Shown piece by piece: positions 703-64,000 of a stretch of DNA of 64,000 bases. The translations under genes were made by a program, and so were the position numbers. Below the pieces are notes generated by a model, which had not been told where the DNA came from, searched no databases, and worked only from the letters and a program-made list of their open reading frames with translations. The DNA is from Loxodes magnus. Its lineage: Eukaryota > Ciliophora > Karyorelictea > Loxodida > Loxodidae. Numbering within the stretch: the first letter of the stretch is position 1; each line of letters opens with the position of its first letter. The stretch lies in the NCBI GenBank assembly GCA_946699065.1, contig CAMPDV010000193.1:372001-436000 (forward strand), given 5' to 3'.

Positions 703-2253
703 ATGGAAAGTTACTTTGCTCAATTATAGATAAATTAATAGGATAAAGCAGCTTAAGAAGTAATTTTAGACCTAATTTCTAAAGAATAGTATGATTAAAT
801 TGAATCTCTTATTGTTTAATAAAGATTAAATCCTCATTGAAACAGCTTATTTTACGTACTATGCTAAGATAATAAGACTGATATTATCTAATCTTTATGC
901 ACCTTTCTTGGTAATAATCCTAAACTTGCTCCTGATCCTTTTGAAATCCTTAAAGTTCTTACTTATTTTGAGTCTTAGAAACAAAATACTTTGCACTTCT
1001 TATCGCTTTATATTAGTTCTGATGTAGATTCCTAGCTAAATGTTCAAATGCTAGATTTTATGAAGGAAGCAACTTCATTTTAGGATATAGCTTTAATATT
1101 TTAACAAAAGAATAACTTACCAAATTTGCTAATTTGGTTAGAGAACCATGTAAACTTAGGAAGCGCTACTCCTGAAATGTTCACTACACTAGCAAAGATT
1201 TATATACTAAAAAACTTAAATCCTTAGCACTTTCTAAAAACAAACTAACTATATAATTTCAAAGAAATAGGTAAATTCTGTGAGTCACTAGATCCACAAT
1301 TAGCTATTATAGCCTATAAGGAAGGTAAAAGTGAGTGTTATTAGGATTTTATCAACTTGACAAATACTAATTATCTATTTAGATCTCAAGTAGATTATTT
1401 AATCTAGCAATAAGATTCTCAGCTTTATGAACTAGTGCTTAGTGAAGATAACTAGTATAGAAGCGCAATGATAAAGTGCTTGATATCTTAAATTATTAAT
1501 TACCAAGATGCTTAATAAATTTCCTTAGTTGTTTAGTAGTTTATGGTAAAAGGCTTGAACTTAGAGTTAATAGAGCTCCTAGAGTAAATAGTATTATATC
1601 ATGAAAACTTTAAAAGCAATAAAAATATTCAAAACTTATTGCTTATATGTTGTATAAAGCATGCTTAGGATAGGGTACTTGCATTTATAAACGTGCTTGG
1701 GAATTATGATGTAATTGAAATAGCTTAAGTTGCAATATAATATAAAATATATTAAATCGCTTTTGAAATTTATAAGAAAAACTAAATGAATGAAAAGGCA
1801 ATACTGGTACTACTAGAACATTTAGAGGATTATAATTAGGCAGCCTAATTTGCTGATTTCATTTAATAGCCTAGTGTATGAGAAATCTTAGCAAAAGCTC
1901 AGCTTGAAAAAGGAATGATTAGAGAATCTATTAGATCATTTGTTGAGGCCAAATCTACTTGCTAATTTTAGAATCTATTTGAAGCAGCAACTGAATAATA
2001 ATTATATGAGCCTTTATTAGAATATTTGCTAATTATAAGGGATAGTTAGCTTGAAATCAACGAAATAGAGATAAACTACCAATTTTCTTATTGTCTAGTT
2101 AAATGTAAGAGATTAGAAGAGTTCAGAAATTTTTCTAGAAGCTACAAAAATAAAATGGATATTAATAAATTGATTGAAAGATTGCAGTAAGAAGGCCATA
2201 ATGAAGAAGCCAGTTTTTTATCAGATATTTGAAAGAAACTTTAAAGATAATGA
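703..2253 (+). CDS. Truncated clathrin heavy chain-like protein
   Basis: One uninterrupted frame of 516 codons under the TAA/TAG=Gln, TGA=Trp code. It matches the middle of clathrin heavy chain: 'IAYKEGKSEC', 'ELVLSEDNQYRSAMIKC', 'LELIELLEQIVLYHENF', 'NIQNLLLICCIKHAQDRV', 'LGNYDVIEIAQVAI' and 'SVWEILAKAQLEKGMIRESI' follow the animal protein nearly residue for residue. The Trp in the last motif is TGA, which fixes the code. Full-length clathrin heavy chain is about 1,675 residues. This gene lacks the N-terminal beta-propeller and the distal C-terminal legs/trimerisation region, and no matching sequence follows downstream. It could be a truncated paralogue acting as an adaptor-like solenoid, or a decayed copy, although the frame is clean. 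Start is the ATG at 703. The stop could instead be TGA 2230-2232 if that codon is not Trp. Confidence 0.88.
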
Positions 2254-3200
2254 AGATTTTACTTCTCTTAATTTATTTATTCCAATAAATTCAAATATAT
2301 CAAAATGAATGAAAAACTAATAACTAATATATAAAGTCTTTAGTAAGTATTTCAGTATATTTATAATCTTTTTCCTTTTCAATTTCTTAATACTACCTAA
2401 GTTTAAGTTTATTCACTAAAATAATAAAAATTAAAGTGTTGCTTTAATGCTCATTTATGTGCTATTTTCAAGAGGATATAATTTTCTATAAATGATAAAA
2501 TAAAAAGAGAATTCGAGAGTATTTATAAGCAATTATAAAATAATGATCTATATACTCTATAGTATGTTACATAAGTCTAATTATTGATAGTTGTATATAT
2601 AAGCAATCATTATTAAAGATACTTCTTATATAATAACTCATATTATTCTGACTCTAGAGTTTATTAATTTATTAGCAAGCTATTTAGACTGCTTCTATAT
2701 GCTTTTATAATTAGATTAAGCATTATTAAATTATATTTGACCAGTTATGTAAGTAATTAAGCTATCAATATGAAATTATTGTGAATATAAGATTAATTCT
2801 AATCTTATATTATCCCAGCTAATCAAAGCTGAAAAGTGATTATATTAAAAACTGTTAAATCAATTCTTTGTTGAGGCCTAATCTAGTTAAGACTCTGAAA
2901 ATAGGGACTAATCAGTAGTCAAAAATTGTTGGATAGTTATTTTAAACCATGTTAAGAGTAGATTATTTTAAGTTTTAAGCTAATTCAAAGTTAACTATAG
3001 AAATATTTTGATTTATATTGTTTAAGTTAGAAGATAGATTAAGCTTCCTTTTCTAAAAATAGCTTTAATCTTTTTCTCTGCTTATTTTAGAAAAGACTAA
3101 ACTCTAATTTTAGAACATCAGATATAATCGTGAAAATGTATTAAGTAATGCTTATTATATATTAGACGTTGAGAACATTTTCTTACAAAATTAATTAAAA
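2254..3200. other. Intergenic DNA between convergent genes
   Basis: AT-rich 3' flanks of the clathrin-like gene and of the minus-strand gene ending at 3201. No coding-like frame was found. It contains the inverted repeat at 3048-3095, listed separately. Confidence 0.55.
3048..3095. repeat. Inverted repeat, 11-bp arms
   Basis: Arms 3048-3058 (CTTTTCTAAAA) and 3085-3095 (TTTTAGAAAAG) are perfect reverse complements with a 26-nt spacer. It lies between two convergent 3' ends, so it could form an RNA hairpin in either 3' UTR. The arms are AT-rich, so chance is possible. Confidence 0.4.
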
Positions 3201-3779
3201 TCACATCCAATTTCTCTTATTTCCAATTTCTAAGTAAGAAAATAGCTCTTTGTGCTTGAGGCATTTATTGCATTTTAGATTTGGTATTTTTAATTCAATT
3301 TTGCATCCTTAATCATAAGGCTTTATCCTTCTCTCAGCATAAATTTCTTGGTTGTTATAAATTTCTTATACTACTTTGACTTTGTTAATTCTAGGACTTT
3401 TGTTTAAATTAGTTAAGCTTGCGTAATTTTTGTTTTAAGGGGTGATCTAAAGCAAGTTTTAGTCTTAGCTTTCTTAAGTTAGAAAGATATTTAATTAATA
3501 TTTCTTTCTTACTTTTCCCTTCTTTCTTCCTGCCTTTAAATTAGGTTTTTTAACAATGCAAGGTAGATTAAATTTGGTTCGTTTGACAGTCTATTTTTTA
3601 TATGGACTTTAAATTTTAGGAGTTCTAAAGGCATCTTTAAAAATAGAATGAGCGGAGTTTTGCGAAGAGTTTTTAGGAGAATTGCTAAGCGATAATGTGA
3701 TTCCATTGGAGTGCTGCATCTTTTACTTCTAGTCTAATTTCCTTAAATTGATTTAGTAATCTCTATTCTGATTTTTCAT
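3201..3779 (-). CDS. Hypothetical basic protein
   Basis: A 192-codon frame with no internal TGA, from ATG 3777-3779 to TGA 3201-3203. An alternative ATG lies at 3717-3719. The N-terminal half is Ser/Asn/Pro-rich and probably disordered. The middle is strongly basic ('KAGRKKGKVRKK'), and near the C-terminus is a Cys pair in 'LKCNKCLKHKE' that could be half of a metal site. No family was recognised. The opposite strand also reads as fairly plausible protein over 3556-3790, and the start codon falls within sequence that may belong to the plus-strand gene downstream, so the 5' end is doubtful. Confidence 0.5.
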
Positions 3780-3839
3780 ACTTATGGCTTATTAAATTAA
3801 ATCGCTAAATTGAAATAGTTAAGAATAAAGGGCTTTTAC

Positions 3840-7731: not shown

Positions 7732-7953
7732 GGTTAAAGAGAGAGTAAGCTCCATTATGTTATCCGTAAGGACAATTGCATTACTGTGCTGTAGCCAATG
7801 ACTTCAAGCAGAACTAACCGCTTTATCTTCGCTCATCCTGACTTGAAGCTTTAATCTACTCAAAGACGGTACTCGCTACCCAGGGGCTCGGAGACTTTTC
7901 CCGGAGTTAGAAGCAATCTTAAGTTTACTCCGAAGCAATTCTTCTCCTTAACC
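7732..7953 (-). ncRNA. RNase P/MRP RNA, probably RNase MRP RNA
   Basis: A GC-richer island in AT-rich DNA with the signature of the RNase P/MRP family when read on the minus strand. The ends pair in a terminal P1 helix (GGTTAAGGAGA at 7953 with TCTCTTTAACC at 7732). The CR-I-like element GGGAAAAGTCTCCG (about 7889-7902) resembles human MRP 'GGGGAAAGUCCCCGG', and continues with 'CCTGGGTAGCGAGTACC' resembling 'CUCGGGCAGAGAGUGCC'. Near the 3' end GGAGCTTAC acts as CR-V. AAG(T)CTCC pairs perfectly with GGAGCTT leaving a single bulged U, the hallmark of helix P4. A P3-like stem (CGGAGT with ACTCCG) and an internal GCTTCAAG/CTTGAAGT stem with a GAAGA (GARAR-type) loop favour MRP over P. Length is about 222 nt; exact ends are inferred from the P1 pairing. 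Confidence 0.75.
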
Positions 7954-9508: not shown

Positions 9509-9547
9509 CCCTAATAGATCCTTAATTTATATTGTATTGTTCCATTT

Positions 9548-10369
9548 TCATTGTAGTCTAATATTTACGTTTCCTCTGCTTTTCGTTTTTTTCTTTTTAG
9601 GATGTTAAAGTTCCAATCAAAAGGTATGACTTTACTAATCTTTATAGTTTCATAAATTGATTGTAGTATTTCCTGTCTTATCATCACTTTTATGTTTATT
9701 TGAATCCATTGAAGTAATAATTATTTCTTCCTAAGCATTTTAAACATTAAAAGTGAACTCTTCATAAAACTCTGCCTACTTGCCCGATTAAGCTACCTTA
9801 GTTTTGAACTACTGTCCTTCGAATTCAATAACAAAGTAAGGATCGCCTTTGCCAATTAAATCATATGTTTTTAATTTTTCAGCCTAAATTATCATTATAT
9901 TGAAGAAAGAATTTTTCATTATTCCATACTAGTTTTCTTAATCTTACTACTCTTGCACAGCTAGATGCTAAGCTATTTCAGTTTATTACTTTAATTTTAA
10001 CTAACAATCAACTTTTAACTCCTCATAGTTTTATTTAGCTAGCTCAATTTATTTCTCCTTACGAGCAATTTCTTCTTTTGATTCCCTAGTAATAGTTTCA
10101 GATAGATCTACTTCTCTCTTAATATTCATATAGTCTTCTCTACACTTTTCTATCTACTCCTTAAATTTAGATTCTATATTTTCCATTCTATCAAAATGTA
10201 TTATTCTATTAGATTTTTATTTAAGCAGTATTAATTATTTTAGCTCTGCATACTTTAAGCATATATTCTATATAAGTAACTGTAAGACTATTTAAACTTC
10301 TTTTCTCTTAAACCAGCTTATCTCAGCTAAATAATACTCCCTACTTTCCTTAATTTAGAGGTCTTTCAT
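9548..10369 (-). CDS. Coiled-coil protein with C-terminal C2 domain
   Basis: Intronless, 273 residues, ATG 10367-10369 to TGA 9548-9550. Residues ~60-135 are a charged coiled coil ('ESKFKEQIEKCREDYMNI' onward, Glu/Lys/Gln-rich). The last ~120 residues look like a C2 domain. It begins 'AEKLKTYDLIGKGDPYFV', the loop-1 motif typical of calcium- and phospholipid-binding C2 domains with its Asp-Pro-Tyr, and continues with 'FYEEFTFNV', 'DDKTGNTTINL', 'HTFWLELQH' and a terminal 'RGNVNIRLQ' strand. Two TGA codons inside the C2 fold read as Trp, so the stop is the third. C2 domains attach proteins to membranes, often under calcium control; the coiled coil probably dimerises it. It lies 312 bp downstream of the COMMD10 gene on the same strand. 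Confidence 0.72.
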
Positions 10370-10681
10370 GTTCTGCACTTTTATATGGCTTTACTTAATA
10401 TTCCCTTTATAATAAATACAGTTTAATTAGTTTTTGCTATTAGTGAAATAGAGAAAGAAAGGTAAATTTGATAATTGAGTAAGTTAAACAATGTAAGGTG
10501 ATTATCTATTTAATAGATATAATATGATAAGCAAGTATAGAAGATCTACTATATAAAGCTTGTAATTAGAATGAAAGTAGTTAAGAGATTTCTAATGGTT
10601 GAAATAAAGATTTAAAGGTTTAAAGTTAGAAATGAAAGATAAAGCAATAAAGTTAAATAAAGTAGATTTGAGGTGTAAGAA

Positions 10682-11266
10682 TCAGGTTAAGCTATCTAGC
10701 TAACCCTATATTAGTTCCAGTTTCTAAAAGAAGTCAGACAGCTGCTTTTTATTGAAATTAATTTAGAACTAATCCCCATCATTTAGTGTAAATACCATTT
10801 CAGACTATACTCCTCTTCCATTAGTCAAATTGCTTGCGGAAATTGGCATTTGTAAGCACCAATTGAATTCTTTCAAAATTTTAGGTGCTGTATCATTCTA
10901 AGATTTCAATTTGAGAACATAGTTAGATCCCTACTAGATCCAAGCTTCACTAAGAATGTTTGCTAAATCTTCTTCCATTTTGATTGACATAAGTTACTGA
11001 GCTAGTGATTTTTAAATGCCTGCACTAGCTGCACTGATATAAATGAAAACAATAGCATGGATAATTGTAGTTACTTCACCACCAGAAACTTAAAGGACTT
11101 CTTCAAGTTTATTAAGCTATTCTTACGAAAATATTTCTCCTGTTTCGCTGCAGAGGCCTGTAAGAATATGTTCAACCAGCAGCTTGAATTTTTAGGGTTT
11201 TATATTATTAATTAATTGGATAGAATCTTTTAGCCTCTCAGTCAATGGAATTTAAGCTTCAGCCAT
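10682..11266 (-). CDS. COMMD10: COMM domain-containing protein 10 homologue
   Basis: Intronless, 194 residues, ATG 11264-11266 to TGA 10682-10684. COMMD proteins form the ten-subunit ring of the Commander complex, which works with retriever and CCDC22/CCDC93 in endosomal recycling. The length and entire course match COMMD10: N-terminal helical part 'LTERLKDSIQLINNI', 'FSQEQLNKLEEVL', then the COMM domain from about residue 135 with 'FNWCLQMPISASNL' (compare human 'VGWQLNLQMAHSAQ') and the end 'KKQLSDFFQKLELIQGQLDS', whose last residues are almost identical to human COMMD10 'KLETIQAQLDSLT'. The exact match at the extreme C-terminus shows that the following TGA is the true stop. Confidence 0.92.
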
Positions 11267-12370
11267 TTTAAATTTTTACCCTTATACCAAAATATTTTTA
11301 TCAACTTATTTCAATTCATTTCTATCATTTAATTTCCTTCCCTCGAAAAACATTTACAAGACTATCTTTACTTTAGCTACAAGTAAGAGCTACTTAATTA
11401 AAATTTAATTATCAATAAGGATCTATTTAGTAAACCTTCTATGAGCGTTAAGTTACCTAAGCATAGGTAGGATATAATTAAAAATTGCTTCTAAAATACT
11501 TTAATCTAAGATATATCAACCAATTGCTTATATCCCTATTACATTCAACTATTTATAATACTTCAAGATTAAATAGCAAAACAGCTCTTAAGACAGTCTA
11601 AATTTATAACTTTATTTCTAATTTTAGTATAAACATCTTGCAAGAGACTAAGCTAATAATTAATAAGCAAGCTATTAAGATACTTCAAAACATAGCAATT
11701 AAGTTATTGGCTAATAGAATGGTATTAGTTACAAGATTATTAGAAGTGAAACCAACAAAATGCTATATTATTGGTATCTTTATTAAATCCTACTAGCAAG
11801 TAATTTAAATTTACTCTTTTTAGCTTTGTACTTAAATAAAATGTAATTTTACTTAATAAGATATTAGATAAAAATAATACTTCTTTAGAATCAATATGAG
11901 TACTAGGTACAATATAATTATATTAATTTTTAAGGATTAAGTATGTTCAATAGTTGTAGTAGTTTGAGAAGATTCTTTATTTTTACTGCGTTTAGAGATA
12001 AATTGGACTCCTTAAAAGGTAAACTTGATATTAACTGTAAGTATATATTCAATAACAAAAGGAAATAATTTAAACATATTTCCTACTTTCTCACTTGTAT
12101 ATGCTGCTCTGTAAAATTTATCATTAATAAATGATTTAATTAATTTCTTAATATCATTTATAGGGAATTAATTATAATACCTATAAATTTTAGATTCTTA
12201 AATGGTCATATTAACAAGCTTTAATGATTGTATTTTAAATAAAAAAAATTGATTTTAGTTTTTCCATGCTGAATAGTTATTCGAATGTTGATTATAGAAG
12301 AAGAGATTTTTTATTAGAGTGATTTACTCAAACTTGATTAAATTTTAAAAGTTAATAGCTGAAGCTTAAT
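11267..12370. other. Intergenic AT-rich DNA
   Basis: About 1.1 kb between two minus-strand genes. No coding-like frame, RNA or notable repeat was seen. It should contain the COMMD10 promoter and the 3' UTR of the potassium-channel gene. Confidence 0.55.
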
Positions 12371-15300
12371 TCATTCTTCAAAGCCCTTAAGATCTATTTT
12401 AGGGTTCTTTTGATTCTCTGCAGTGTCTACTTCAACACCTAAAGCTTGAAGCTCTATTTTGTTTACTTGACTTTCCTTGTTGTCTTTTTAGTTTTATTAT
12501 TAAACGTTGCTTTAAATTTTTAAGTTAGGTATTCCTGGTTCATCTTCCTCCTTAATTGACTTTGCGCTTTTAATGTGTGTGGCTAAAAAGGAATTTCCAG
12601 TTGATGAAGTTGGAAGAATTGATACCTGAGATTTAGCTGAGTAGCTAGATTTATTAGAATGCTATTCCACTTCTTAAGACTTTAAGCTAGATTAATTTTC
12701 AAAAGCCTAAAATGCATTTTGGTATAAAAATGAGCTATATCTCTTGATGTCGAGTATGGACATTCTCTTTTTACTTTTCTTTTTATGAAATTCTTTTACT
12801 TCCTACTTTAAATAGCTCAGTAAAATTACATTATTACCAAGAGAATCTCTTTTCCAAGCATTATTCTTCAACTTTATTGGACTAGAGTATCTCTTTGAAA
12901 TCTGTTCTAATCCTTTGCTTGTTTCTTTTTATATTCTTTACTTCTTCCTATTTTTCAGCTACTTCTCCTTTAAAGTTTTTTGCTAATCATATCATCTTAT
13001 AAACTATTCAGTGTTCTAAATCTAAGATGTTTACTTCCTAATAACTTTAGAGTTTTAGTTTTTTTAAGATCCTAACTAGAAGTTATCTATAGACTAAATA
13101 AGTACACTATCTCTTTTTTCCTTCTATTATAGTATCTATAGCTGAGTATAATATAGCTATAGCAGGTTATTTTTAGTTAGCTGCTTTTTTACCTGTTTCT
13201 TATTTCTAGTTTTATTGACATAGTTGTTGCTTAAGTATTTTTAATGGTTTTAATTGAAGTGTCTTACATTCTTCATAACATTACTCTTACCCACGTAGAT
13301 CAGCCCTAAATTTAAATTCAGAATAGAGTTTTTTATACATTTTTCTAGCTGACTACAGTTATAGATTTCAGATTTAAGTTCCTTGAGATAAATATAGTTT
13401 TGCTCAAGAATTAGCCATGCTACCTTGATTTTGATAATATCATCACAGATTTCATTAAACTGTAATCACATATGCTCTCTTGATGATAAATTCCTTTTAA
13501 TTGAGTAAATTTCTTTTTTAAACATTATTTTGGCATGAACCAACTTTTGCCTCCAAACCTTGTTTTAGTCTTTTTTGAGCCAAATTAAAAAAGAAATGTT
13601 TTTGTCTTTCTTCTAGTGCAAACACTGGAAAAAAGCTTTAATATAGTTAGAGGCACATATTTTACATCTCTTTAGGTTCCTCGATAGCTTTAGTTGTTAA
13701 ATTTTAACTTACTATTCAGTTTTGAAATTTGAAAGTTGAGTAAGGATGACGGACATTAAGCACGAAAGTATAATATTAGCAAGCAAGACTAAAAAGGCCA
13801 TCATGATCTGAGTCATAAACAATTTAGGCTAAATATCTCCAAAACCTATTGAAGATACTGAAACGAATATAAACCAAAGGGAATTTGAAGCTTAATGCCA
13901 TGTTTTATTATCTACGCTTCTTTCAGATAGTCTAATGCAAGGAACTGCTACAGCTAATGTAGTAAGGAAGATAAAGCACATAAATCTTTTAGGGTATTTA
14001 TTCATATTGTACTTTAGGTAAAACCAATAATTTTTTCTGAGTATTTAAGTTTTACCTACTCGAAACAAATCTTCTCTATACATTGCTTTTAAAAAGCAAA
14101 TTCTGATAAACACATAGAATCTTATCATAGTGAGTATTGTTATGAAATCATTTATGCTCCTTTTAAATTTAATATTACTAAAATCCTTATCTTCTCATTA
14201 GTAGTTTGTATAATCAAAGGGGATCTTTATTAGAGAGTTCAAAAACAATTCGATTATCATAAAGTTTCTACAGTAAGACTCTTGCATAAGAGTAGTTCGC
14301 TAGTCTTTTAATTCATATAGCTTCTTTAGGTTAAGGATTTGATTGTATCTCACGATAATTAAGAAATTGTTTACCATCACAAAAAACACATTCAAAGATT
14401 AGATCTCCTTGCTCAAGTTTTAATCATAGTCTATTTTGTAAACTAAGTCGTTATCGTAGAAGCTAAGATAAATTATTACTATCGACAGTAAGAAAATTGA
14501 AATATCGCAAAAATAGATTCTATTACGTATCTTGCGAAATTCTTGTTTGTTTGGAGTTACGTTAAATAATTGTTTTGGAAGCACTCCATCGTTTATTTTA
14601 CTGAATTACTTCTAAAGCTATTCACTTTCTTTTGACTTTTTAGATAATGTATCTAGATTTTGTTTTGAATTTTGCATTCTCAGTATTTTATCAAAAAGAG
14701 GATTTTGTTCCTAGATCTATTCTTAGCTTTTCGAAATATTCAATGGTTTACTTATTTCATTAAATTTCCAAAAGTCGTTTTCTTTTAAACTTTCAGAGTT
14801 GTTAAATTACTTAATTGATATTTAATTTTAGTCTCCATCTGAACTTTCGTACACATTCATAAATCTGGTTTTGAGTGATTACTACTTAACTGAGAGAGAT
14901 TTAGTCTTATTTAAAATTTTATGCTAATCTTTACTTTAGTTCTATTTATTTTCATTTTCAATTCTAATTATATATTTAGAACCTCTTCCTTTCTAATTTT
15001 CTTTATTTTCAAAGTTTTTAAGTTCTAGTATTTTAAGATCCTTTGCACTATCCCTTCTTCTATTTTTGGATTACACATCATTAATATCAATTTTTAAGAA
15101 TTACAAAGGTTTCTATCTCTGATCTTTTATATCAAGATTATTACAAATTTTTGGCTTATTTTCATCCTATATATCACTAGAGAAACTGAACTCGTATTAA
15201 TTCTCTTGGAGATTTACAATCTAAGTACTTTACAAATTTTCTGAAGACTCTATAGAGAATAGAGGGTTGGCAAGCAAGAAAGGCGATTAAGATCCGTTAG

Positions 15301-15400
15301 CCTACATGTAATTTTTAAAATTCTTGCTAACCTTTTTAAAGATCTAAGCAAGTAATCTTCGCTTTTTGTTCTGTAAAATATTTTTGAAACTCAAATCCAT
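12371..15400 (-). CDS. SK-like (calcium-activated) potassium channel
   Basis: Intronless, 1,009 residues, ATG 15398-15400 to TGA 12371-12373. A long polar N-terminus (~290 residues) is followed by six membrane spans: 'DISIFLLSIVIIYLSFY' (S1), 'FFVMVNNFLIIVRY' (S2), a helix around 'FMIIELFLNSLI' (S3), 'FITILTMIRFYVFIRICFL' (S4), 'RFMCFIFLTTLAVAVPCIR' (S5) and 'MMAFLVLLANIILSCLMSV' (S6). Between S5 and S6, near residue 510, is the pore 'SLWFIFVSVSSIGFGDIQP', i.e. a GFGD selectivity filter. The region after S6 ('KLVHAKIMFKKEIYSIKR' and neighbours) resembles the calmodulin-binding domain of SK/IK channels, so calcium-calmodulin gating is likely. The ~350-residue C-terminal tail is low-complexity. 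In ciliates such channels shape membrane potential and swimming behaviour. Confidence 0.85.
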
Positions 15401-15527
15401 TTATATACAGCCTTATTTACTATTTCCTTAATTGAAATTCTTTACATAAGAATTAATAAAGCAACACCACTTAATCTATTCTATATCCTAAACTCTATTA
15501 TTTCCCCTTATCCATTCTTTATTCCTT

Positions 15528-21250: not shown

Positions 21251-24200
21251 ATGTTTTTTTCTAAATAACTATAAAAGAAAAATCTTAAGCCTATTGCTTT
21301 AAACTAGAGCTATAATGAGGAAATAAAATCGGCTGAATTAGGGGATAAGAACGTTCCTTCTCTTGATTTAAGTGCCTTAAAAGACAAAAATAAAGAAAAA
21401 AAGGCTTAAAAAGTGAATACCTAAAACTCCAAATTGAATGAGATGAGATAGAGTAGACCAAAACAAAGAGCTAAGAGGCTAGTTTTGTCTTTAGTAGGAA
21501 GTATGCATTAAGTTAGCTAAAAAGTACCAGTAATTAGTTAAATTAAAATAAAAGATAGAAGATCTTAAGGCCCACAGAATAAAAGGGAAACTTAAGAGTT
21601 ATTGGAAACTTACGATATTCTTAAAAATGAAATTAGGGAAGCTAGCAAACTTCCTAAACTTAGATCTTGGACACCTTAAGAGTTAAGAAAAAATGAAATA
21701 CTTTAGTAAAGACTGCTTAGTACTTCCGAGCAAAAACTAAAATGAAGAAACTTTATTTAGAAAAAATTTGAGATTAAAAGAGAAAACTTGATGCTTAAGA
21801 TTGCTGGAAAGGAATAGATTAATACAAGTTTATGCTTAAAATAGTAGCAAAAATATGCAGATAAATAACTAAAACTTCTTGACAAATTGAGGAAGTAAAA
21901 TGCTAGTGCTACTAGGAACTTAATAATGGCTGTAATTAGATAAAATAAGAAAGTTATAGAAGCCTTACTTAATGAATGTCCTAATGAAAATGCGAGAAAA
22001 GAGTTAATTCAGTAGAAAGACTAGTTTCATAGGACAGCTTTACATTATGCTTGCTTTACAAATTAATTAGGAGTAGTTGAGTTGCTCCTTCATAATGGAG
22101 CTGTTCCCGAAAGTATTGATCATAAAAAGCGAACTTCGTAAGTTTATTTTACTAGATAGGCTTCACTATGCTGCAATTAATGATTCAACTAGACTAGTGG
22201 AGTTGTTATATATATAGCATAACACAATGAATCCAGTTAAGAAAATAGTTTAATAAAAGCAATAAAGAAAAGATTCTAGGACGAATATAACCGAAGTCCT
22301 TCAAAGAGTGGTAACAAAGAACTCTATAGTATTTGAAAATAAGCATGAGGGTGCAGATATTATCATTGATGAAAATTTGATTCTTTATGATGAAATTGAC
22401 CATGCTTGTAAAGCAGTAAGAAAAAAAACGATGAGAAATATAAATCCCAGTATGCAACTAAATAGAGAAGAAAGTGAAGATAAACTTTCTGAAAAAATTA
22501 ATTTGATAGACGCTTAAGATTATAGAGGTAGAACAGCTTTGCATATTGCAGCTATGCATGGCAACTTGAACACTATAAAAAATCTTCTGGATTTAAATGC
22601 AAATATTGAGATTTTAGATCATGACAAGAAAACTGCTTCAGAACTCTGCTCTAATGTGCAAGCTGCCTCTATGTTTTTGTAAGAAAAGAAAACTGTAAAT
22701 ATAAAGCAAAAGTTTCATTTTTTGACAAATAAGCATTTCGAATAAGTAGAAAAGAAGTAATTTTTTATTCAGTTAAACTAAAGAGCAGGATTTAAAGCTA
22801 TTATCAACAGTTTAAAATAGTTTATTATAGTAGCTTATTATAGGAGCTGATTAAGACACTTACTTGACGTAAGATTTAATTTTAGTTTAGCTGTCAAGCA
22901 AAGAAATTTTTCCTTAATGAAGATTCTTGTCAATAAGTAACTCAGTGTTAGCAAAAAAAACGCGTAAGGCTGGAATGCAATTCAGCTAACAATAAAAAAT
23001 AATGACTTAAAGGCTTTTATCTATATTATGCAGGAATTAGATTTGCAAAACTTATCATAAAATGAGTTAATTTAATGAATAATAAATGTTAGTGATTTTG
23101 AAGAAACAGGCATTGAATAGATGGCAGCTTTAGATATTTTAAATTCACAATAGCATGGACCTCTTCACCTGGCTGCAATGTACAGTAGTAATCATTACTT
23201 CACTCAATATATAGTTAAGATCTTGTAATATAGAGAGACAGTAATGAGTGATATACTATCATGTTTAGATCATATCAACATGTAGTCCACTGATGGTCAA
23301 ACTCCTCTAATGCTTGCTATTAAAGCTTGTGATATTGATTTATGTCTATATTTAATAAATCAAGGAGCAGATATTTATCAAAAAGATGACTAATAGCGAA
23401 ATGCTCTACACATTGCCAGCTTTTATGCAGTTAAAAAAGTGATTTAGCTCTTAATAGTACTAGATGCTGACGAAAATATATTAAGAAATGAGTAAGATTT
23501 AAGGGGATAAAGGCCAAAAGATTTAGATGTAGGAGGGAAAAATCAGAATTCCTTTTTGCATATATGAGATTACGCAAGAACTGGGAATATTTAAAAAATT
23601 AGCAAACTAGTTAAAAGCAAAGAATTTGATATAAACTAGTAAACCAAAAAAAAGTTAAATACTCCATTGCATATTGTAGTTCAACATAAATAAATACTGT
23701 CTATTGAAGCTTTGATAAAACTAGGAGCTGATACTAATATTTAAAACAGTGAAGGAATGACTATTTAAGCAATGATTCAAAAGTACATAGATTAAAACTA
23801 GTAAATGATGGTTATTAAGATACTTAAGAATAGTTAGCTAGATGAGCAAGCTTATTAGGAGCTATAAAGAACATATAATGAAAAGAACGTTTAAACAGTG
23901 CTAAGCTAGTAGAAATAACAAATTTTAGAAAGATAAAGATCTTTGATGGGGTAAGTAACAAATAAGACAAAAGAGGAAACTGATCATTTCTATAGAACTT
24001 TGAGAGATAAACTCTAAGAAAAATAGATGACAATCAAATAAATTTATGAAATCCTAGGAAAGGCGAGTTCAGGTATTTCATTTTATTATACAGGAGAACT
24101 TAATTATCTAGATTTTGAAGGAATAATGAGATGATTAGGAATTAGCTATGATTAAAACTAACTTAAAAAGGTAATTATGTTAACTGACTTAAATAAAGAT

Positions 24201-24332
24201 GAAAAAATTTAATACACAGAGATTTTGAAAAAAGTAGTAGAAATATAGGAAAGAGACAGGGTCTTTCAAAGAGAAAAAAAATAGGAAGAAGAAAAGTAGA
24301 AAAATTAGAAAGTACCAAGACTAAATCTATGA
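21251..24332 (+). CDS. Ankyrin-repeat protein with C-terminal EF-hand
   Basis: ATG 21251 to TGA 24330-24332, 1,019 residues after removing a 22-nt intron (22138-22159, GTAAG...TAG). The intron splits an ankyrin repeat, and splicing restores '...KRTS-LHYAAINDSTRLVEL'. A basic, Ser/Gln-rich N-terminus precedes a coiled stretch. Ankyrin repeats follow with clear TALHYA/ALHIA motifs: 'RTALHYACFTNQLGVVELL', 'RTALHIAAMHGNLNTIKNLL', 'GPLHLAAMYSSN', 'GQTPLMLAIKACDIDLCLYL', 'RNALHIASFYAVKKVIQLL' and 'NTPLHIVVQHK'. Near the end is 'DLNKDEKIQYTEIL', a canonical EF-hand loop (D-N-D-K-Q-E), after a degenerate one ('LNYLDFEGIMRWLGI'). Likely a calcium-responsive scaffold; partner unknown. Confidence 0.85.
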
Positions 24333-27120: not shown

Positions 27121-27730
27121 ATGACTCCAGCTCTTAACTGCAAAAGTAGCGATTCTAATTTTATTTAGGAACTATGTGTCTAAAGCTTCGGAGGTGAAAT
27201 AGAGTTATTTTAATTAGTGCCAATAACAAAAAACACGGAAATAAAAGATCATGAAATTGTAGTAAGACTAAATTAATCCGAATTCAGCATAAATTCAATA
27301 GAGCAAATGTTAAAGTAGCATGATAATCTTAATATTTAACTTGAAAAATCTCGTGAAGCACTTAAAATCTATCAATAGGAACTTGACTCTTATTAACATA
27401 TTACTGAGCTTGATAAAAACAAAAAAATTAATCAGTTAGATGAAGAAAATAAAAAGTTGAAGCAACTACTGAAATAGCAACTCGAAAACAGCGAGAACTT
27501 GCGTGTCGAGACATAGGCAACAATTGAAACTTTGAGAGAAGAGTTTAATATGCTAGTCAAGGAACTAATAAATTTTAAAGGGGCGGGATTCAAGCATGAG
27601 CCTTTAAAATCTGAAAGAGAAGAACGAGAGAAGAGAGAAGTAAAGCAACACCCATAAAAGACGACAGGAGTTAGAGTAACCAAACTAAACATGTAAGTAA
27701 CTAATATATAGGGCAGCTATAAATACTTGA
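27121..27730 (+). CDS. Small coiled-coil protein
   Basis: It begins 73 bp after the EF-hand gene. ATG 27121 (an upstream in-frame ATG lies at 27103) to TGA 27728-27730, 196 residues, if a 19-nt intron (27693-27711, GTAAGT...TATAG) is removed. Without it the frame runs 450 nt further with deteriorating composition. Residues ~10-60 include 'ELCVQSFGGEIELFQLV'; from ~70 a coiled coil starts ('QMLKQHDNLNIQLEKS', 'QLDEENKKLKQLLKQQLE'). The C-terminus is basic. No family was recognised. The N-terminal part is compatible with a small globular domain ahead of the coil, as in many centrosomal or flagellar proteins. Confidence 0.65.
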
Positions 27731-36793: not shown

Positions 36794-37444
36794 TCAAATT
36801 GTTTCTAGAGATTCCAAGTACTAAATTACTTCTTTCAGTTCTGATCTCTTGATAGATGACTAAGCGAACTTAACTTTAATTCCCTGTACTTTCAAAATAT
36901 CCTAAAACTCAAAAGTCTTTTTATCTCTAAATCCTACTCCTTAATGCTCAGGTTTTCCCTTCAAAGTCACAATTTCTTTAGCTAATTTTTCTTCGATAAA
37001 AGTAGTTCTTCTAGCAAGCTTCTCATCTTATTTATTGCAAAGAATTAATATTGATCCTGTATATCCAGACTTAATAATTTCGCATAGCTTAAGAGCGGCG
37101 TCTGAATAATGTTCTTCACTTGAAGAATCAACCAAAAATATAATTCCACAAACTTGGTTTGTCCTCAACTAGTTAACAATCTCTTAATCAAGGGAATTTA
37201 ATCCTGGAATATCATAAACCTTTAGCACTTTAGTTCCAAAATGAAAGTCATCTTCATTTATTTTTAAGGAAGCTACAGTGGTTTATTCTTAATTGTAAAT
37301 AAGTTTATGGAATAAAGAGGTCTTTCCACTATCAATAGGTCCTACAATAATAAGTCTATTCTTCAATAGTCAGCTTTTTCTCTTCTTATAATATAAAAAT
37401 AAAAATAATAAAACTAGAACACCTATTCCTAAGTAGATGTACAT
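36794..37444 (-). CDS. SRPRB: Signal recognition particle receptor subunit beta
   Basis: Intronless, 216 residues, ATG 37442-37444 to TGA 36794-36796. SR-beta is the ER-membrane GTPase that anchors SR-alpha and receives ribosome-SRP complexes. An N-terminal membrane anchor ('GIGVLVLLFLFLYYKKRK', residues 6-23) is followed directly by an Arf-like GTPase fold: P-loop 'GPIDSGKTSLFHKL', switch II 'YDIPGLNS' (human 'IDLPGHES'), 'GIIFLVDSSS', guanine-specificity motif 'LCNKQDEKLA', and the SR-beta-specific tail 'FIEEKLAKEIVTLKGK', 'FEFQDI' and 'ELKEVIQYLESL'. The order and spacing match human SRPRB. The Trp in 'RKSWLLKNR' after the anchor is TGA. Confidence 0.93.
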
Positions 37445-40439: not shown

Positions 40440-40980
40440 ATGTGGAAATCTGAGTTCATTAGATTCTTTTCTGAAGATTCTTAGGTAAACTTAAGAAAAT
40501 AACTATTGTATAGACTGAAACGTCTTGGAACTCTTGAAATAGAAAACTTAGCAATTACTTGAGGAAATGTAATAATTCCTAATCTTGATCAATCTAAATT
40601 AGAGAAACTTGAATAAGAAATGCATAGCTGAGATGCTATAAATCTATTTAAATAAATTACAGGAAGATAGCCAATTCCACCAGACTGAGAATTCGCAAAT
40701 TTGCTTAAATAGTTCACAGATAATTAAATGAAAGATGGAAAGTTAAAAGAGGAACTAACATAAAAGCTTTCAAACATGTTTTAAGAAAGTTAAGTATAGC
40801 CACAAATCTAGAAATGGATGAAATTCTATTTGCCAACTGTAGGACCTAACTAATGTCAAGGAGTGTTACTATTATTGGAAAATACAGATTTATAGATTAT
40901 TATAGAAGAAATAGAAGGTAAAAGACCTGCATCTACTTTGTTTACTAAAAGTGTCTTTTAGATAAGTAACGAACTTTCAA
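40440..40980 (+). CDS. SDHAF2: Succinate dehydrogenase assembly factor 2 (flavinator), 3' end unresolved
   Basis: Starts at ATG 40440. SDHAF2/Sdh5 promotes covalent FAD attachment to the SDHA flavoprotein in the mitochondrial matrix. The core, residues ~15-95, shows the family pattern: 'LRKQLLYRLKRLGTLEIENL' (family 'RKRLLYRSKKRGMLENDLLL'), 'LEKLEQEMHSWDAINLFKQI' (family 'LDEFLEE.DWDIYYWATG'), then 'TGRQPIPPDWEF' and 'LLKQFTD'. No obvious mitochondrial presequence is seen ahead of it. Usual length is ~160 residues. Here coding-like sequence continues past residue 110 into 'LLLENTDLQIIIEEIEGKRP' (to ~40975), and the first in-frame TGA is only at 41646, so a small intron or an extra domain must lie beyond the core. 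The stated end marks the limit of good coding signal. Confidence 0.75.
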
Positions 40981-48404: not shown

Positions 48405-50841
48405 ATGAATTTAAGGAAAGCTAGAGTTCATCTAACGGGATAAAGCAACAAGGATAAACTGTTTTCATAAACGGTGCTTGATAGTAAAGGAGAGAAACTT
48501 CCTTTACATTCTCCTTCTTTTCCCTATAGCGAATAAAAAATGAGGAAAAGCCGTTTTGCAAGGTCGCTAGTGCCAAAGGAAATTGGACCTATAGAAACAT
48601 AACAAAAGTTTTATGAAGAATAAGGTAAAAAATAAAAAACATAGGTAAATATAGCAAATCCTAAAGCTGCTGAAATAGAAGATAAACGTTTATTTGGTAA
48701 ACCTTTCATTGGAGGAGATAATGAGCCAAATGTTATAAAAGCTTCTAAATAAGATTTCATTAAGAAAAACTAGTTAAATGAGCAGGGATAGTCATAATAA
48801 AACATTCAAAGGTAAAAACTTGTTGAGACTAAAATAGTAGCTCATAAAGCTGCAGTGCAAGAAACTCAAATTGTATTAGTTGATCATAAAGAAGGTTTAG
48901 AAGGAAAAGTAGATTTGAAAAGAATAGCAGATATTAGGAGAACAATCAGAAGAAGATATGCTAACAGAAAAGACTACTCTAAAATTTTCAATGCATGGGA
49001 TTTAAATAACTATGGAGAAATTAGCGTAAACGATGTTTAAACTATGATGGGAAGGCTTGGAATCAATATAAATGAAAATGAAGCGAAAGTTTTGGTAGCA
49101 ACTGCTGACTTAAAAGGTTCATAAACTCTCAACATAGATGAATTCTTCAGTTTAATATTTGATGATAGCGAAAATTTAAATGTTAATCTAACAACAATGA
49201 ATCCTTCAAAAGAATGGTCAAATGATTAAGCAAATAACAAGGGACTCTATAGTGACCTTCATTAATTGGCAGTCAATTAAAAGCTGAGGAATCAAATTAA
49301 AAGTCTTAAAGAAATTTGCTAACAACGTATTTAAGGGGCTATTGTTGAATTTTTGAAGCATGATAAAAAGAAGGAAAGAGTCATTAGCTATGATCAATTT
49401 AAGGACGTAATGAATGAGTTGGAAATTCCAAGAGACTTAAATGAAGATAAAGTCCTTAAAATGTTTTTTTTAGAAATGGGAGCAAAGGAATCTTATCTTA
49501 ATTATTAGTAATTCATAGATCAAATTAAAAATTATCATGAAGACCAACCATAAGAATCTAGAGAAAGATAAATGCAATCATCTTACAATTCTTTAGTTAA
49601 TCAATAGCAAGATAAGATGGAAAACTCTCCTCCTTTTAAAAAAACAGCAACTCAAATTCTTAAAAACTCTCAGGCCAAATTAAATATACTTGATGGAATG
49701 TCAGTTACACCTAACTAGTTAGAGATTATTCTTTAAAAATCCAGAAAGGTAAGAAAATTCCTTAAAAGCAAATATAAAAATAACAAACAATTGATGGAAG
49801 AAGCTTTAGTGCCTAAAAGCGATCCCAGAATTAGTATGCAATAGCTAAGAGAATTTTTATCAAATACTATGGAGAGTGAGTAATAAGTAAGTAATAGGCC
49901 TGAGTTAAAAGATATAGAAGGATTTCTAAGTACATTTAAATATAGTGTTGACAATCACGCAAATGCTAAAGATATAGTTGATAATATCTTTATGTAAGTT
50001 TTTTCTTATTCTTAGGGATGATATGCAAGTTCTTAACTCTTTAAATCAAAAAAAGCGAGTTCATCCTCCAATGCCTAGATAAATCTAGTCAGCAGGATAG
50101 TAGTTTGACAATTAGAAGATTGCTGGTTTACTTTAAACACTTGAAGATAAAGTTTTTACAGGAACAACTCAATAATTCTAGGTATTTAAGTAGTTTGACA
50201 TTGATAATGACGGATATGTCTCTTTTAAAGACTTTTAGAACAAGTTATAATAACTTCAAATGAATTAAGGAGATGCTGATGTAATATTTAAGCATTTGGA
50301 CTAAAATTAAAACGGATATCTGACCTTTAAAGACTTTAGCAATTTGATAAAGCCTTAAATTTTACGAAGTAATACTTTAGGAGTTTAATGCCACATTAAC
50401 AAAATGCAACCAAGCTAGTAGTATTTAAATGATTAAAAAAATACAACCAAGAATTTCTTCGATTAGCACTAAAAGTTATCTCATTTATACTCCCCTTAAT
50501 ATTGTTAGCCTCAATACTAGATTAATAGATTCTCATATAATCCTCCTGTTAAAAACACCTGGGATAATTTTATCCCTCCTAGAACAGCTGGAGCTTACTT
50601 AGATCCAAATTTCTAATATGTCAGGAAAACAATTGAACCTGTTAACATTGGAGTTGAGGAAAAGATTAAATATATAAGGAAAACTGAAGCCAAAAAGAAC
50701 ATTCGTATTCAAAGAGAAACAGAAAGAGAATAAAGAGTCCAACAAATTGAAAAAATGACTGCCGAAAAAGACGAAAGTAAAATTTTGATGAAGGGACTAA
50801 GGCAGCAGGATTACGAAAGAAGAATGCATCTTTTTAACTGA
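48405..50841 (+). CDS. Multi-EF-hand calcium-binding protein (flagellar-type)
   Basis: ATG 48405 to TGA 50839-50841, 804 residues after removing a 22-nt intron (49994-50015, GTAAG...TTAG). Splicing gives 'DNIFMDDMQVLNSLN'. EF-hand units: 'IFNAWDLNNYGEISVNDV' followed by its partner 'TADLKGSQTLNIDEFFSLIF' (residues ~185-245), a degenerate pair ('HDKKKERVISYDQFKDVM', 'EMGAKESYLNYQQFIDQI', ~320-375), and a canonical pair near the C-terminus, 'FDIDNDGYVSFKDF' and 'LDQNQNGYLTFKDF' (~595-640). The last 100 residues are a basic coiled coil. The combination of EF-hand pairs with 'PPRTAGAYLDPN'-type linkers recalls axonemal EF-hand proteins of the EFHB/EFCAB6 kind. That assignment is inferred from architecture only. 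Confidence 0.85.
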
Positions 50842-52190: not shown

Positions 52191-52796
<606 letters not shown>

Positions 52797-58430: not shown

Positions 58431-59750
58431 ATGCTGCTGGATAAGTTGTACGAATTAGGACTTCCAGCAGATTAAATCAATTTCCTTTTAATAGTTACAA
58501 CAAACTTACTTGTTGGATATTTCCATCACGCTCTTCGAGGCTACTATGTTAGACTTTTCTACAGTTTTTTCATGGGTGCAATTATGCTTTTCTGAATGTA
58601 TGGAGTAAAGGGAGCAGTTAACTTTTTAATTATAACGGTTTTGGTGTATGCGATAATGATGTGTTACCAAAAGAGATGTGGATTTATAGGTTCTATTGCT
58701 GCATTAGGATATTTAAGTTTAGTTCATATTTATAGACAATATTACTATTATGGCTCTTGGAATATCGATGTATCTATGCTTATTATGATGCTAGTTCCAA
58801 AGCTTGTTATAGTTGCTTTTAATCATCAAGACAAGACTGTAGAAAAGCCTAATTTACTCGAATATTATGCTTACGTAACGTTTTATGCCTCGGTTGTTAT
58901 GGGACCAATTTACGAGTACACGGATTTCATTAAATTCTGTAAAGAAGTTGGTTACGAAAAATTGACCATTTGGAAAAGCATAAGATAGAGCATCCTTTAT
59001 TTTTTAAGAGCTGGCGTTTCTTATGCAATAAATACGGTAGTTCTTATGTATTTCCCTCTTGAGTATTTGTGGTCTGAAGAATATGCAGCTCTTCCTATGT
59101 ACCATAAAATGGCTTACTTCGTAATTCTTAGCTAAGGTCTTAGATTCAAATTCTATTTAGGATGGAGCCTTGTAGAAGCAAATCTTGCTGCAGCAGGTAT
59201 ATCATACAGTCATAAAACAGATCGCTTTGACTTAATAAGAGCTTGCCATTACGAACTTGTTTAGTTTTCTTTCAGCACAAAATATATCTTAGAAGGATGG
59301 AATTCAAGCATTGCTTTATGGCTCAGAAATTATGTTTACAACAGATCAATCAAAAGAATGAGTCCAGATATGGCAAGTTTATTTACAATGATGGTATCAG
59401 GATTATGGCATGGATTTTATCCAGTATACTACTTTAACTTCATAATGCTGTGGAGTTATGGAGAACTTGGAAAAAGATGGTTCAAGATTTAGAATCTTAT
59501 TAAAGGACATAGACTTATGCCATTCTTTAAGTTCCTCAATGCATTTCTTGTTGAAACATTCACAGATTGCAACTTCTCCATGCACTTCGTGTTAGATTTA
59601 TAAAAGTGCTTGCTATTTATGAAAGCAGTTCATTTTTATACTCCCATAGGCTTTTTCACAATGGAAGTGATTACAAGAACTGTTTACAACTATTTAAGAA
59701 GAAAAAGTTTAGAAGGTTAGAAAAAAGAGGAAAGTAAAAAAGATAAATGA
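58431..59750 (+). CDS. MBOAT-family lysophospholipid acyltransferase
   Basis: Intronless, 439 residues, ATG 58431 to TGA 59748-59750. Members of this ER multipass family (LPCAT3/MBOAT1/2/Ale1) transfer acyl chains from acyl-CoA to lysophospholipids in the Lands cycle. The start 'LGLPADQINFLLIV' matches the family's 'LGLPVDQVNFL' opening exactly, fixing the ATG. 'GYFHHALRGYYVRLFYSFF' is the typical next segment. The catalytic pair is present: Asn in 'EGWNSSIALWLRNYVY' (~residue 288) and His in 'MVSGLWHGFYPVYYF' (~residue 327), as in the family 'WN...WL...Y' and 'SAFWHGFYPGYY'. About ten hydrophobic spans. The C-terminal tail is Lys-rich ('KKEESKKDK'), consistent with ER retention. The Trp after 'AIMLF' is TGA. 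Confidence 0.93.
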
Positions 59751-61411: not shown

Positions 61412-64000
61412 ATGTCTTCTATTCCATTTATCACAATTCCTTGTAAGTTTTAATATAGCACCTGGAGTTTTTGAAATATCAGAGTAGGCTGTTTAAATGC
61501 TACAAAACTTGGATTATCCTGTAGGAGTCATTTGCACTGTTGGTCCTCCTCGATCAGGAAAATCTTTCTTGTGCAATTAAATTCTTAATAGGATGAGTGG
61601 CTTTGAAGTCGGTCATACTCCATAGTCTTGTACAAAAGGAATTTATATATGAAGCGAGCCGCTATAAGTTTCAAGAAAAAGCACATTAGGAAGTAATGAA
61701 ACAGTTAAGCTTCTTTTAATGGATTGCGAAGGAATTCACGCATCTGATCGAAATGAAAACGATGGACTTCATCTATTTTGCTTATCTATACTACTAAGTT
61801 CTCATTTAGTCTATAATTCAAACAAATCTATAGAAAGAGAAGCTCTAGAAAGTCTAGATTTGGTTACAAATTTGACTCAATTTATTAAAATAAAAGAAGA
61901 AAACTAGCACGATGAGGGGAAATATTATAGACATCATTTCCCAGCCTTAACTTGAATTATTACAGATCATACCTTGAAAACAAATAATCCTAAATAGTTA
62001 TTAGAAAATAGTCTTGAGCTAGTCGAAGGAAACTCTGAAGAAGCAAAAGCTGCAAATTAAGTAAAGACAAGAATTAAGCAGTTTTTCCCTGAAAGACACT
62101 GCTTTACTTTAGTGAGACCTGTTTTAAAAGAAGAATAGCTACATTAAATAACATCTCTTTAGATTGAAGATCTCAGACCAGAGTACTAGTCTAAAATAAC
62201 AGAAATTAGAAATCATTTAATTAAGCAGACTCATATAAAGCGAGTAGTTTCTAAATAAATATCTGGAAGTGTTCTACTTAACTTAGCTCTTGAGTATGTT
62301 TTTTAAATTAACTAAGGCTTTGTGCCTGTCATTGAAAATGCATTTGGAGAAGCTGTAAGTGCTGAAGCACGACGAAAAAAAGAGTATATCTTCTAAAAAT
62401 TCAACTAGCAAGTAACTCTTAATTTAGATAAGCTCAATCTCGTTACCAAGAAATGAATAAGACTTGTTTATAGAGTGGCAAAGCAGCTCATTAAAGTTTA
62501 TTAATTAGTATGATGATTTGCTTGCTGACTTGCTTAGTGATAATGAAGTAAGAGAAAGGAAAAAAGAATTATGATAGAGCTTTGAGGATATTCTATTCTA
62601 ATTTATTAAAGAGAACGAAAGTAAAAGCAATTAGCAATGTCAAGAGCTTTTAGAAGATATTCAAATGAAGCTTAAATAGTCTGAATCCTTAGATAAACTT
62701 TTAAAAAACTTCTAGGTTTTCTTAAAAGACTATGATAGCTAAGGAATAGGGCCTTCTAAATATACCTGCTTAGAAGAATTCTACAACTATCTAATCAATT
62801 CTATTTATTCAAAGCTTCAAATTTAATACCAGCAGCATGAAAACTAGATACTTGAAATGCAAATAGATCTATAAAACCAGTATAAATTAAAAGAGGAGTT
62901 TAAAGTGCTAAATTAAAGACTGAGAGATTAATTCCAGTAATAAGATAATGAATTCAATATAGAAAAGGAAAAACTCCTAAGCGAAATAAAGAGATTCAGA
63001 AGTGAACAGGATGCTAAAATAATCGAAGCGGAGGACTAAAGAGATCATTTCAAACGTGAAGCGAAAAAGTACAAATTAGAAATAAATTAAGTAACAAAAA
63101 ATAAAAAGAAAGAAATTGAGTAAATTTCTAATTTTAAAGATTAACAGATAGAAGAGCTTACTAACTAGAATAATGAAATAATATAAAAATTACATGAAAG
63201 CAAGTAATAAAATATCATGAAATAAAAGCAAATAGATCAGATGGAAAGAAATCATTTAGAAGAAGTTTAAGACCTCAATAAAAAAATAAAAATGCTTGAA
63301 GCAAGAGCAGGATAACTTCCCTAGAAAAACAGCGATACAACAGCTCTGGAAACAGTTTAAGATCATGTTTAAAAGCTATTTGTAAAAATTAAAGCGAATT
63401 CTAGTAAAAAGTATGACGAAATAGACACTTTGGAAAAAATGAAGAGTTAATATGAAAAAATGGACCACCAGAATTTTGAATATCAAGAAAAATATACTAA
63501 GCTTGAGGAAAAATACCATTGTGATATTTAAAAGCAGAAGTAAAATTTTGAAGATAAGATCTATAACATCAATTAAAATTGTGATTACTTAAACCAAGAG
63601 AAAAACGAGATTCAAGGCAAAATAGAAAGACTTGAAGCAGAGAAGTAAAAGTTATAGCAATTCTACTAAGAGAAGTTGCAAAAGAATGAAATTATTTACT
63701 AAGACTACAAAAAGGAGAAAGAAGAATTAAGTGAATAAATTTCATATCAAAAGTAAGAAATACAAAAGTAAAACGAAGATTACTAAGAACAGATAAATTC
63801 GATTGTAAAGTTTAAAGAATAGTATACTCTTGAGCGTGATAATGTAGATATAATACTCAGCTTATTTAGATAACTATGTCTCAATCTAAATCCAAAAGGT
63901 TAGAAAAATAAGGTTTGCGGAATTGCACATGATATTAATAAGTTGCCATCTGAATACAGAAACACTATAACTAACGTGCTTAAAGAAACTAATATCCCAT
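61412..64000 (+). CDS. GBP/atlastin-type large GTPase with long coiled coil, 3' partial
   Basis: ATG 61412, still open at the window end, 852 residues so far after removing 16-nt introns at 61443-61458 and 62412-62427 (both GTAA...TAG). The GB1/RHD3 GTPase domain occupies residues ~10-290: P-loop 'CTVGPPRSGKSFLCNQIL', 'FEVGHTPQSCTKGIYIW' (GBP 'FSLGSTVQSHTKGIWMW'), G3 'LLMDCEGI' (GBP 'LLDTEG'), an RD-like box 'TWIITDHTLK' and 'FFPERHCFTLVRPV' (GBP 'FFPKRKCFVFDRP'). A helical domain follows, then >400 residues of coiled coil ('KKYKLEINQVTKNKKKEIEQ' and similar). Such dynamin-like proteins oligomerise on membranes. The cut end prevents seeing a prenylation site or membrane span. The Trp in 'GIYIW' is TGA. 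Confidence 0.88.

Follow-up and report, generated by a model that had tools for sequence, protein, structure and literature searches.

Where one codon serves both as sense and as stop, the choice of the ribosome between a tRNA and a release factor is put to a strong test. The question is raised by a 64,000-nucleotide stretch of DNA from the freshwater karyorelict ciliate Loxodes magnus (positions 372001-436000 of contig CAMPDV010000193.1, here C193; the whole stretch is called the window). An earlier interpretation of these letters, the sequence-only reading, took TGA as both tryptophan (Trp) and the only stop, with TAA and TAG as glutamine (Gln). As that reading noted, such a code is described for karyorelict ciliates; it is already published for the L. 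magnus genome (PMC11441545) and for the class. Is TGA, then, the only stop? A search of 705,730,643 bases in 7,843 contigs suggests that genome-wide it is not, and that UAA also ends a minority of genes. It is very likely that the window is L. magnus macronuclear DNA with the karyorelict ambiguous code, in which most genes end at UGA and a minority at UAA and in which selenocysteine (Sec) occurs in thioredoxin reductase (TrxR). Two stops are likely to carry a sense meaning as well, UGA as Trp or Sec and UAA as Gln, with UAG as pure Gln. The sequence-only reading thus holds for UGA as Trp and stop and for UAA and UAG as Gln, and is incomplete as to UAA stops and a Sec-like UGA in TrxR.

Codon meanings and gene ends in Rab-like loci

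The sense meanings were tested on the Rab-like family. The PF00071 profile listed 150 scored matches genome-wide, of which 129, including one in the window, were read; the 21 left out were in the main partial matches or near-identical copies of contigs. Codons were scored in the 112 of the 129 loci that have the motif D[TSM][AS]G. The invariant Trp position before the motif is TGA in 56 loci, TGG in 48 and another codon in 8, while the invariant Gln position after it is TAA in 67, TAG in 23, CAA in 12, CAG in 5 and another codon in 5. TAA or TAG therefore stands at the Gln position in 90 of 112 loci. In the codon table, to which seed genes from other loci also contribute, the two make up 643 of 917 Gln codons. 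That UGA is Trp inside genes and that UAA and UAG are Gln is settled as far as sequence allows.

Rab proteins terminate in a prenylation motif, CC or CxC. Gene ends were scored by locating the first in-frame motif of this kind and then the first TGA, TAA, TAG, CAA or CAG within 0-3 codons. This could be done in 57 of the 129 loci; 70 lack an in-frame motif, and two have a motif without any of the five codons within three residues. Spliced tails were inspected and kept out of the counts, and three intron-based TAA candidates (L055, L062 and L047) were dropped because the splice choices were judged implausible. The codon found after the motif is TGA in 41 loci, TAA in 12 and TAG in four, and never CAA or CAG. 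In 11 of the 12 TAA-ended loci the next in-frame TGA is 16-128 codons off.

UAG was considered as a stop and rejected. All four TAG cases have a TGA 1-7 codons further on, which fits Gln: L001 and L002 read CCK-TAG-TGA, L036 reads CC-TAG-YV-TGA (CC-TGG-YV-TGA in its paralog L045), and the CC found first in L113 is spurious and is followed by CKC-TGA. Reassigned by hand to the next TGA, they bring the totals to 45 TGA and 12 TAA, with no unambiguous use of UAG as a stop among the 57 fixed ends. The share of UAA is 12 of 57, or 11 of 57 on a strict reading, roughly one fifth, and the claim that TGA is the only stop fails here for the genome at large.

The main alternative is that L. magnus follows table 27 strictly, with UGA as the sole stop. 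The TAA at Rab ends would then be Gln with translation reading on to the next UGA, or the loci would be decayed copies, or an intron would have gone unseen. This is unlikely, although several results speak for it and weigh against termination at UAA. The L. magnus paper names UGA as the only stop (PMC11441545), and according to a transcriptome survey karyorelicts stop at UGA and read UAA and UAG as Gln (PMC6935857). The Loxodes eRF1 motifs TASNIKS and YCF together are reported in a review to give UGA-only specificity (PMC4695839), a result that, as described there, concerns the motifs and not the whole factor near the 3' end. In L091 and in four spliced tails (L044, L065, L066 and L072) TAA is followed by TGA within 1-2 codons, which fits Gln and then stop. 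The same scan in antisense frames returned TAA in 6 of 387 cases (2, 1 and 3 of 129), with six TAG, one TGA and five CAA/CAG; at about two TAA per 129, one or two of the twelve TAA ends may be due to chance. Frames +1 and +2 of the control, with TAA in 5 and 4 of 129, include genuine spliced tails and did not serve as the chance level. No TAA end was found among the exact-motif ends of HSP70/BiP, the 15 readable LC8 ends or the five Ran ends described below, and none of the 26 3'-complete gene models of the window needs a UAA stop, the lowest coding score after a TAA there being -1.3.

Other results speak against strict use of UGA. The coding score is negative between TAA and the next TGA in all 11 loci where that TGA is distant. 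Three paralogs that are 65-75% identical (L117, L119 and L122) all end CCKN-TAA, and two others end CCY-TAA (L083) and CCF-TAA (L088). In both groups the TAA is retained, as is the protein sequence leading up to it, whereas identity in the read-through region is around random: 0.18, 0.31 and 0.42 in the first group and 0.28 in the second, against 0.27 +/- 0.08 for random pairs. The highest value, between L119 and L122, is about two deviations above random. Judged by these comparisons, conservation among TAA-ended paralogs stops at the TAA. Also against the strict reading are the three TAA-ended paralog pairs that were computed, where nonsynonymous divergence (dN) is 0.18-0.26 and synonymous divergence (dS) at least 1.5, saturated in one pair.

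The change in composition across TAA resembles that across TGA. In 13 TAA-ended genes (L138 included) the codon score falls from 0.107 to -0.160 and GC content from 0.304 to 0.210; in 49 TGA-ended genes (four CaaX-ended included) the respective changes are from 0.125 to -0.189 and from 0.307 to 0.205. The coding score stays positive over 25 codons past the stop in 1 of the 13 and 2 of the 49 genes. In one TAA-ended gene, L126, it is slightly negative already before the stop.

Stops are also exchanged between paralogs. L041 ends CNC-TAA and L027, 71% identical to it, CNC-TGA; L138 ends CNVL-TAA where L116, L127 and L132 end CNxL-TGA, which again counts against strict use of UGA. With an inferred intron, L098 ends CCK-TAA and L030, L077, L099 and L105 end CCK-TGA.

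UAA is scarce just before the stop. The last 20 codons of the 12 TAA-ended genes contain no TAA in 240 codons, with seven TAG and eight CAA/CAG, compared with 25 TAA in 900 codons in TGA-ended Rab genes (Fisher p 0.0047). Within TGA-ended genes, TAA makes up 4 of 450 codons in the last 10 positions versus 239 of 6274 at positions 21-160 (p 0.0003), and TAG 10 of 450 versus 108 of 6274 (p 0.45, no depletion). The last 10 codons of the 26 window models likewise hold one TAA and 11 TAG. This agrees with the depletion published for L. magnus, where UGA and UAA, and not UAG, are depleted before the stop (PMC11441545).

Ends in other gene families are mostly TGA. Among 13 HSP70-family tails, five read EEVD-TGA (three of them copies from one array on contig C45) and two HEDL-TGA, so that all exact-motif ends are TGA. 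In L143 a variable tail precedes the TGA, the end of L144 reads ADFKKK-TGA-TGA, L142 and L153 read TAA-TGA, which is compatible with either meaning of UAA, and L150 and L154 have no recognisable end. In 20 LC8 tails, with the frame picked by motif score, 15 end at TGA within one codon of the family C-terminal position, seven as KSG-TGA; L163 has TAA and then TGA within six codons, and four tails are unreadable. Five Ran-like tails end DEDL-TGA, and the two eRF1 genes end DEDFL-TGA. Adding five CaaX ends and the 57 of Rab gives 13 TAA in 91, a sum over mixed families that does not represent a random sample. On these numbers UAA looks to be a stop of minority use, which highly expressed genes perhaps avoid. 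HSP70 genes form arrays on C45, C86 and C854, the last of which holds repeated HSP70 fragments.

Decoding machinery and selenocysteine

The eRF1 sequence, which the sequence-only reading had named as a check, is encoded by two genes (L010 and L011) on contig C196, about 35 kb apart and 95% identical in DNA; the remaining PF03463 match, on C2, looks like Pelota. Compared with the human protein, L010 carries E55A, T58R, S60Q, S70A and Y125F and keeps NIKS, GTS, C127 and F131. Its RAQNIKS, FLCENTF and Ala70 are identical to those printed for Loxodes striatus (Table 2, PMC4695839), a comparison limited to the motifs. Further in-frame TGAs follow the eRF1 stop, three within six codons in L010 and two within four in L011, and the EEVD-TGA-TGA of the C45 HSP70 array resembles them.

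A pattern search gave 137 matches (control 2), and of the 100 matches listed 93 carry the tRNA-Trp(CCA) sequence. These lie in arrays (L175-L177), 48 on C67 (C67:482324-491202) and 45 on C148 (C148:155465-167689). The array period is about 187 bases on C67 and about 241 bases on C148. Six of the genes were drawn, three from each contig, and all have a 27:43 mismatch (A.C on C67, T.C on C148), which leaves a 4-bp anticodon stem. A stem of this length is reported for Loxodes tRNA-Trp (PMC13092985; PMC12005148), and by analogy tRNA-Trp(CCA) would be the decoder of UGA in L. magnus.

Alternatively, a cognate tRNA-Trp(UCA) might decode UGA as Trp in place of the 4-bp-stem tRNA-Trp(CCA). A gene for it could sit among the 37 of 137 pattern matches outside those listed, or could have a different T-arm. 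This is improbable, given that the only UCA-type match among the matches listed (C11:778610, L179) is not called a tRNA, and that the 4-bp stem itself is reported for the genus.

Amplification of tRNA-Trp was entertained as a special adaptation, an idea weakened by the high copy number of other tRNAs. A pattern for the anticodons UUA and CUA gave 431 matches (control 2), 100 of them listed, and tRNA-Lys(UUU) and tRNA-Arg(UCU) are the two sequences most frequent among those listed, as judged from three loci (L189, L203 and L190). Their listed matches are scattered and partly in small tandem arrays; thus a high copy number is not peculiar to tRNA-Trp. Among the loci examined from the genome pattern searches, ARAGORN called no Gln-tRNA with anticodon UUA or CUA. 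This counts against the overall reading, with the limit that the searches presuppose a given spacing or a Tetrahymena-like sequence, that two were judged on the 100 matches listed, and that the result is not evidence of absence. L205 and L206 are called tRNAs of unclear anticodon.

The mechanism proposed for an ambiguous code with UGA and UAA stops is one of competition. In the body of the mRNA, translation would be the default at UGA, UAA and UAG, where tRNAs would outcompete an eRF1 altered at its decoding site: tRNA-Trp(CCA) with its 4-bp anticodon stem would wobble onto UGA to insert Trp, and UAA and UAG would be read as Gln. Near a short 3' untranslated region and the poly(A) tail, PABP-assisted eRF1/eRF3 would win on UGA, less often on UAA and never on UAG. 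In TrxR mRNAs, a UGA two codons ahead of the stop would be read as Sec. The position-dependent PABP/eRF1 model comes from a 2016 paper (PMC4967479), and termination at UAA is the part that we infer for L. magnus. The codon assignments, homology-fixed stops, 4-bp stem, eRF1 substitutions, tRNA-Sec genes and GC-TGA-G-TGA ends are read from the sequence, while decoding by the 4-bp stem (shown by others in other species), the poly(A)/PABP context, Sec in TrxR and peptide release at UAA are inferred.

The sequence-only reading had supposed that termination uses context such as nearness to the 3' end. In line with this, no sense TGA occurs in the last 35 codons of the 57 Rab genes with a fixed end. 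The last 40 codons of the same genes contain only two TGG, so that Trp is already rare near Rab C-termini and the Rab data alone are no proof of a position-dependent stop. In the window, its remark that the last Trp-TGA usually lies well over 100 nt before the stop is mostly right: in 17 of the 19 models with sense TGA the distance is at least 66 codons. The exceptions are a C2-domain gene (TGA at 9619, 23 codons from the stop) and model 40440-40688 (19 codons), for which Pfam gave no match. Across the 26 window models, one TGA and one TGG fall within the last 20 codons.

UGA probably has a third meaning, Sec, in TrxR. A tRNA-Sec profile gave 52 matches, three of them over the gathering score of 47 bits (73.9, 70.5 and 63.5), and ARAGORN calls these three tRNA-Sec(UCA). 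Seven weaker loci that were scanned contain tRNA-Ser. Thioredoxin reductase has the C-terminal end GCUG. The Pyr_redox_dim profile (PF02852) gave 13 matches, and in four of the eight tails fetched, those of the TrxR paralogs L199-L202, the end reads GC-TGA-G-TGA. The penultimate sense codon of TrxR is known as Sec (PMC4967479), and the same 2016 paper in Cell assigns UGA all three meanings, Trp, Sec and stop, in Condylostoma and in the karyorelict Parduczia, TrxR included; a Sec meaning is therefore to be expected here. If the TrxR UGA is Sec, translation passes through a UGA only two codons short of the stop, and nearness to the end would not be the sole cue. A GTGA lies 34-36 nt past the stop in all four TrxR genes, within an internal loop of a long hairpin in L199 and L200 only (minimum-energy folds). 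To set against the Sec reading, no Rfam match to a selenocysteine insertion sequence was obtained at E up to 10. Glutathione peroxidase was considered as a further selenoprotein and rejected, as all four matches carry Cys at the catalytic position.

Comparison with known codes

The code of the karyorelicts Parduczia and Loxodes is table 27, and that of Condylostoma is table 28. With table 27, L. magnus shares UAA and UAG as Gln and UGA as Trp or stop, UGA terminating 45 of 57 Rab genes, 7 of 13 HSP70/BiP genes (exact EEVD or HEDL) and 7 of 20 LC8 genes (exact KSG). It differs in that UGA is the sole stop both in table 27 and in the L. magnus paper, whereas 12 of the 57 Rab ends are TAA here. 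A literature search, with supplementary files outside its reach, found no mention of a UAA stop in Loxodes. Seah et al. are said to have suggested in 2022 that UAA is a stop in a small minority of karyorelict transcripts. New would be the demonstration of UAA stops by ends fixed through homology, their frequency, and the matching lack of UAA in the codons that lead up to UAA stops. If UAA stops are real, table 27 and gene predictions that allow UGA only misplace such gene ends, and karyorelict gene annotation needs a second stop. The genome offers the same codon as Trp, as stop and probably as Sec, and its paralog pairs ending in UAA and UGA make the choice of the ribosome testable.

Condylostoma magnum likewise has context-dependent stops that are also sense codons, Sec as a third meaning of UGA and a 4-bp tRNA-Trp anticodon stem (PMC13092985). 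Its eRF1 is inferred to recognise all three stops, in contrast to L. magnus, where no unambiguous UAG stop was seen. Blastocrithidia shares a UAA that is both sense and stop, the 4-bp-stem tRNA-Trp(CCA) and a change at eRF1 residue 70, to Gly there and to Ala here; in Blastocrithidia, Gly at this residue together with the 4-bp-stem tRNA-Trp greatly raises UGA readthrough (PMC12153298). The two codes differ in that UAA and UAG are glutamate and UAA is the sole stop in Blastocrithidia, whereas in L. magnus they are Gln and UGA is the main stop.

Genes of the window

A gene finder written for the analysis, which allows short introns, gave 27 models on the two strands of the window, 26 of them 3'-complete. 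Since the finder permits TGA alone as a stop, the 26 stops are not independent evidence on the stop codon. Model 0 has its start placed too late, and the open frame from position 703 holds one further TGA. A Pfam scan of 20 of the 27 models, in part run on single exons or with the start extended, gave matches at E of 0.001 or below in 15, including clathrin repeats, C2, COMM_HN/COMM_domain, ion channel, ankyrin, PARP, SRPRB, Ras, RING, MBOAT, GBP and Myb. The genes that bear on the code are as follows.

703..2232, plus strand: clathrin-repeat (VPS-like) gene with a Pfam match; sense TGAs including 1879 (residues PSVW); TGA end
9548..10186, minus strand: C2-domain gene; sense TGA at 9652 and, just 23 codons short of the TGA stop, at 9619
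10682..11353, minus strand: COMMD10-like gene without sense TGA; TGA stop (10682) after the COMM domain
12371..15400, minus strand: ion-channel gene (Ion_trans_2); three sense TGAs
21251..24332, plus strand: ankyrin-repeat gene; six sense TGAs; predicted 19-nt intron 22311-22329; part 22227-24329 scanned with Pfam
36794..37444, minus strand: SRPRB gene; sense TGA at 37372; TGA stop (36794)
52191..52796, minus strand: Rab gene; sense TGA at 52478 and, for the W of WDTAG, at 52598; Cys-Cys-TGA end (52191)
58431..59750, plus strand: MBOAT gene; sense TGA at 58593 (IMLFW); TGA stop (59750)
61497..62456, plus strand: GBP-family GTPase; sense TGA at 61650 (KGIYIW) and 61953; TGA stop

The four sense-TGA sites named by the sequence-only reading are all real. 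The TGA at the Trp of Rab WDTAGQ is in frame at 52598 on the minus strand (LWDTAGQ), as are those of the GBP motif TKGIYIW (61650) and of MBOAT IMLFW (58593), and the COMMD10, SRPRB, Rab and MBOAT genes do end at TGA, the Rab gene after Cys-Cys. The clathrin Trp-TGA expected near 1880 exists at 1879, in the residues PSVW and not PAVW as had been read. Sense TGA occurs 38 times in 19 of the 26 3'-complete models, beside 47 TGG in a total of 8727 codons. That these TGAs are assembly errors or pseudogene lesions in a plain ciliate code (table 6) is hardly credible: TGA is indeed rarer than TGG in the window models, but no support for errors or lesions was found, and the sequence already contradicts the idea: 19 of 26 models contain sense TGA, the Rab Trp position is more often TGA (56 of 112 loci) than any other codon, and full-length matches to the Ras profile are among the loci with TGA there.

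Three GT-AG introns are predicted in the window, at 22311-22329 (19 nt), 27693-27711 (19 nt) and 49994-50015 (22 nt). These lengths are within the range published for L. magnus, whose mean intron length is 19.3 nt (PMC11441545). The only Rfam match in the window at gathering thresholds is an RNase MRP RNA gene on the minus strand at 7733-7953 (RF00030, 89.6 bits; gathering threshold 50).

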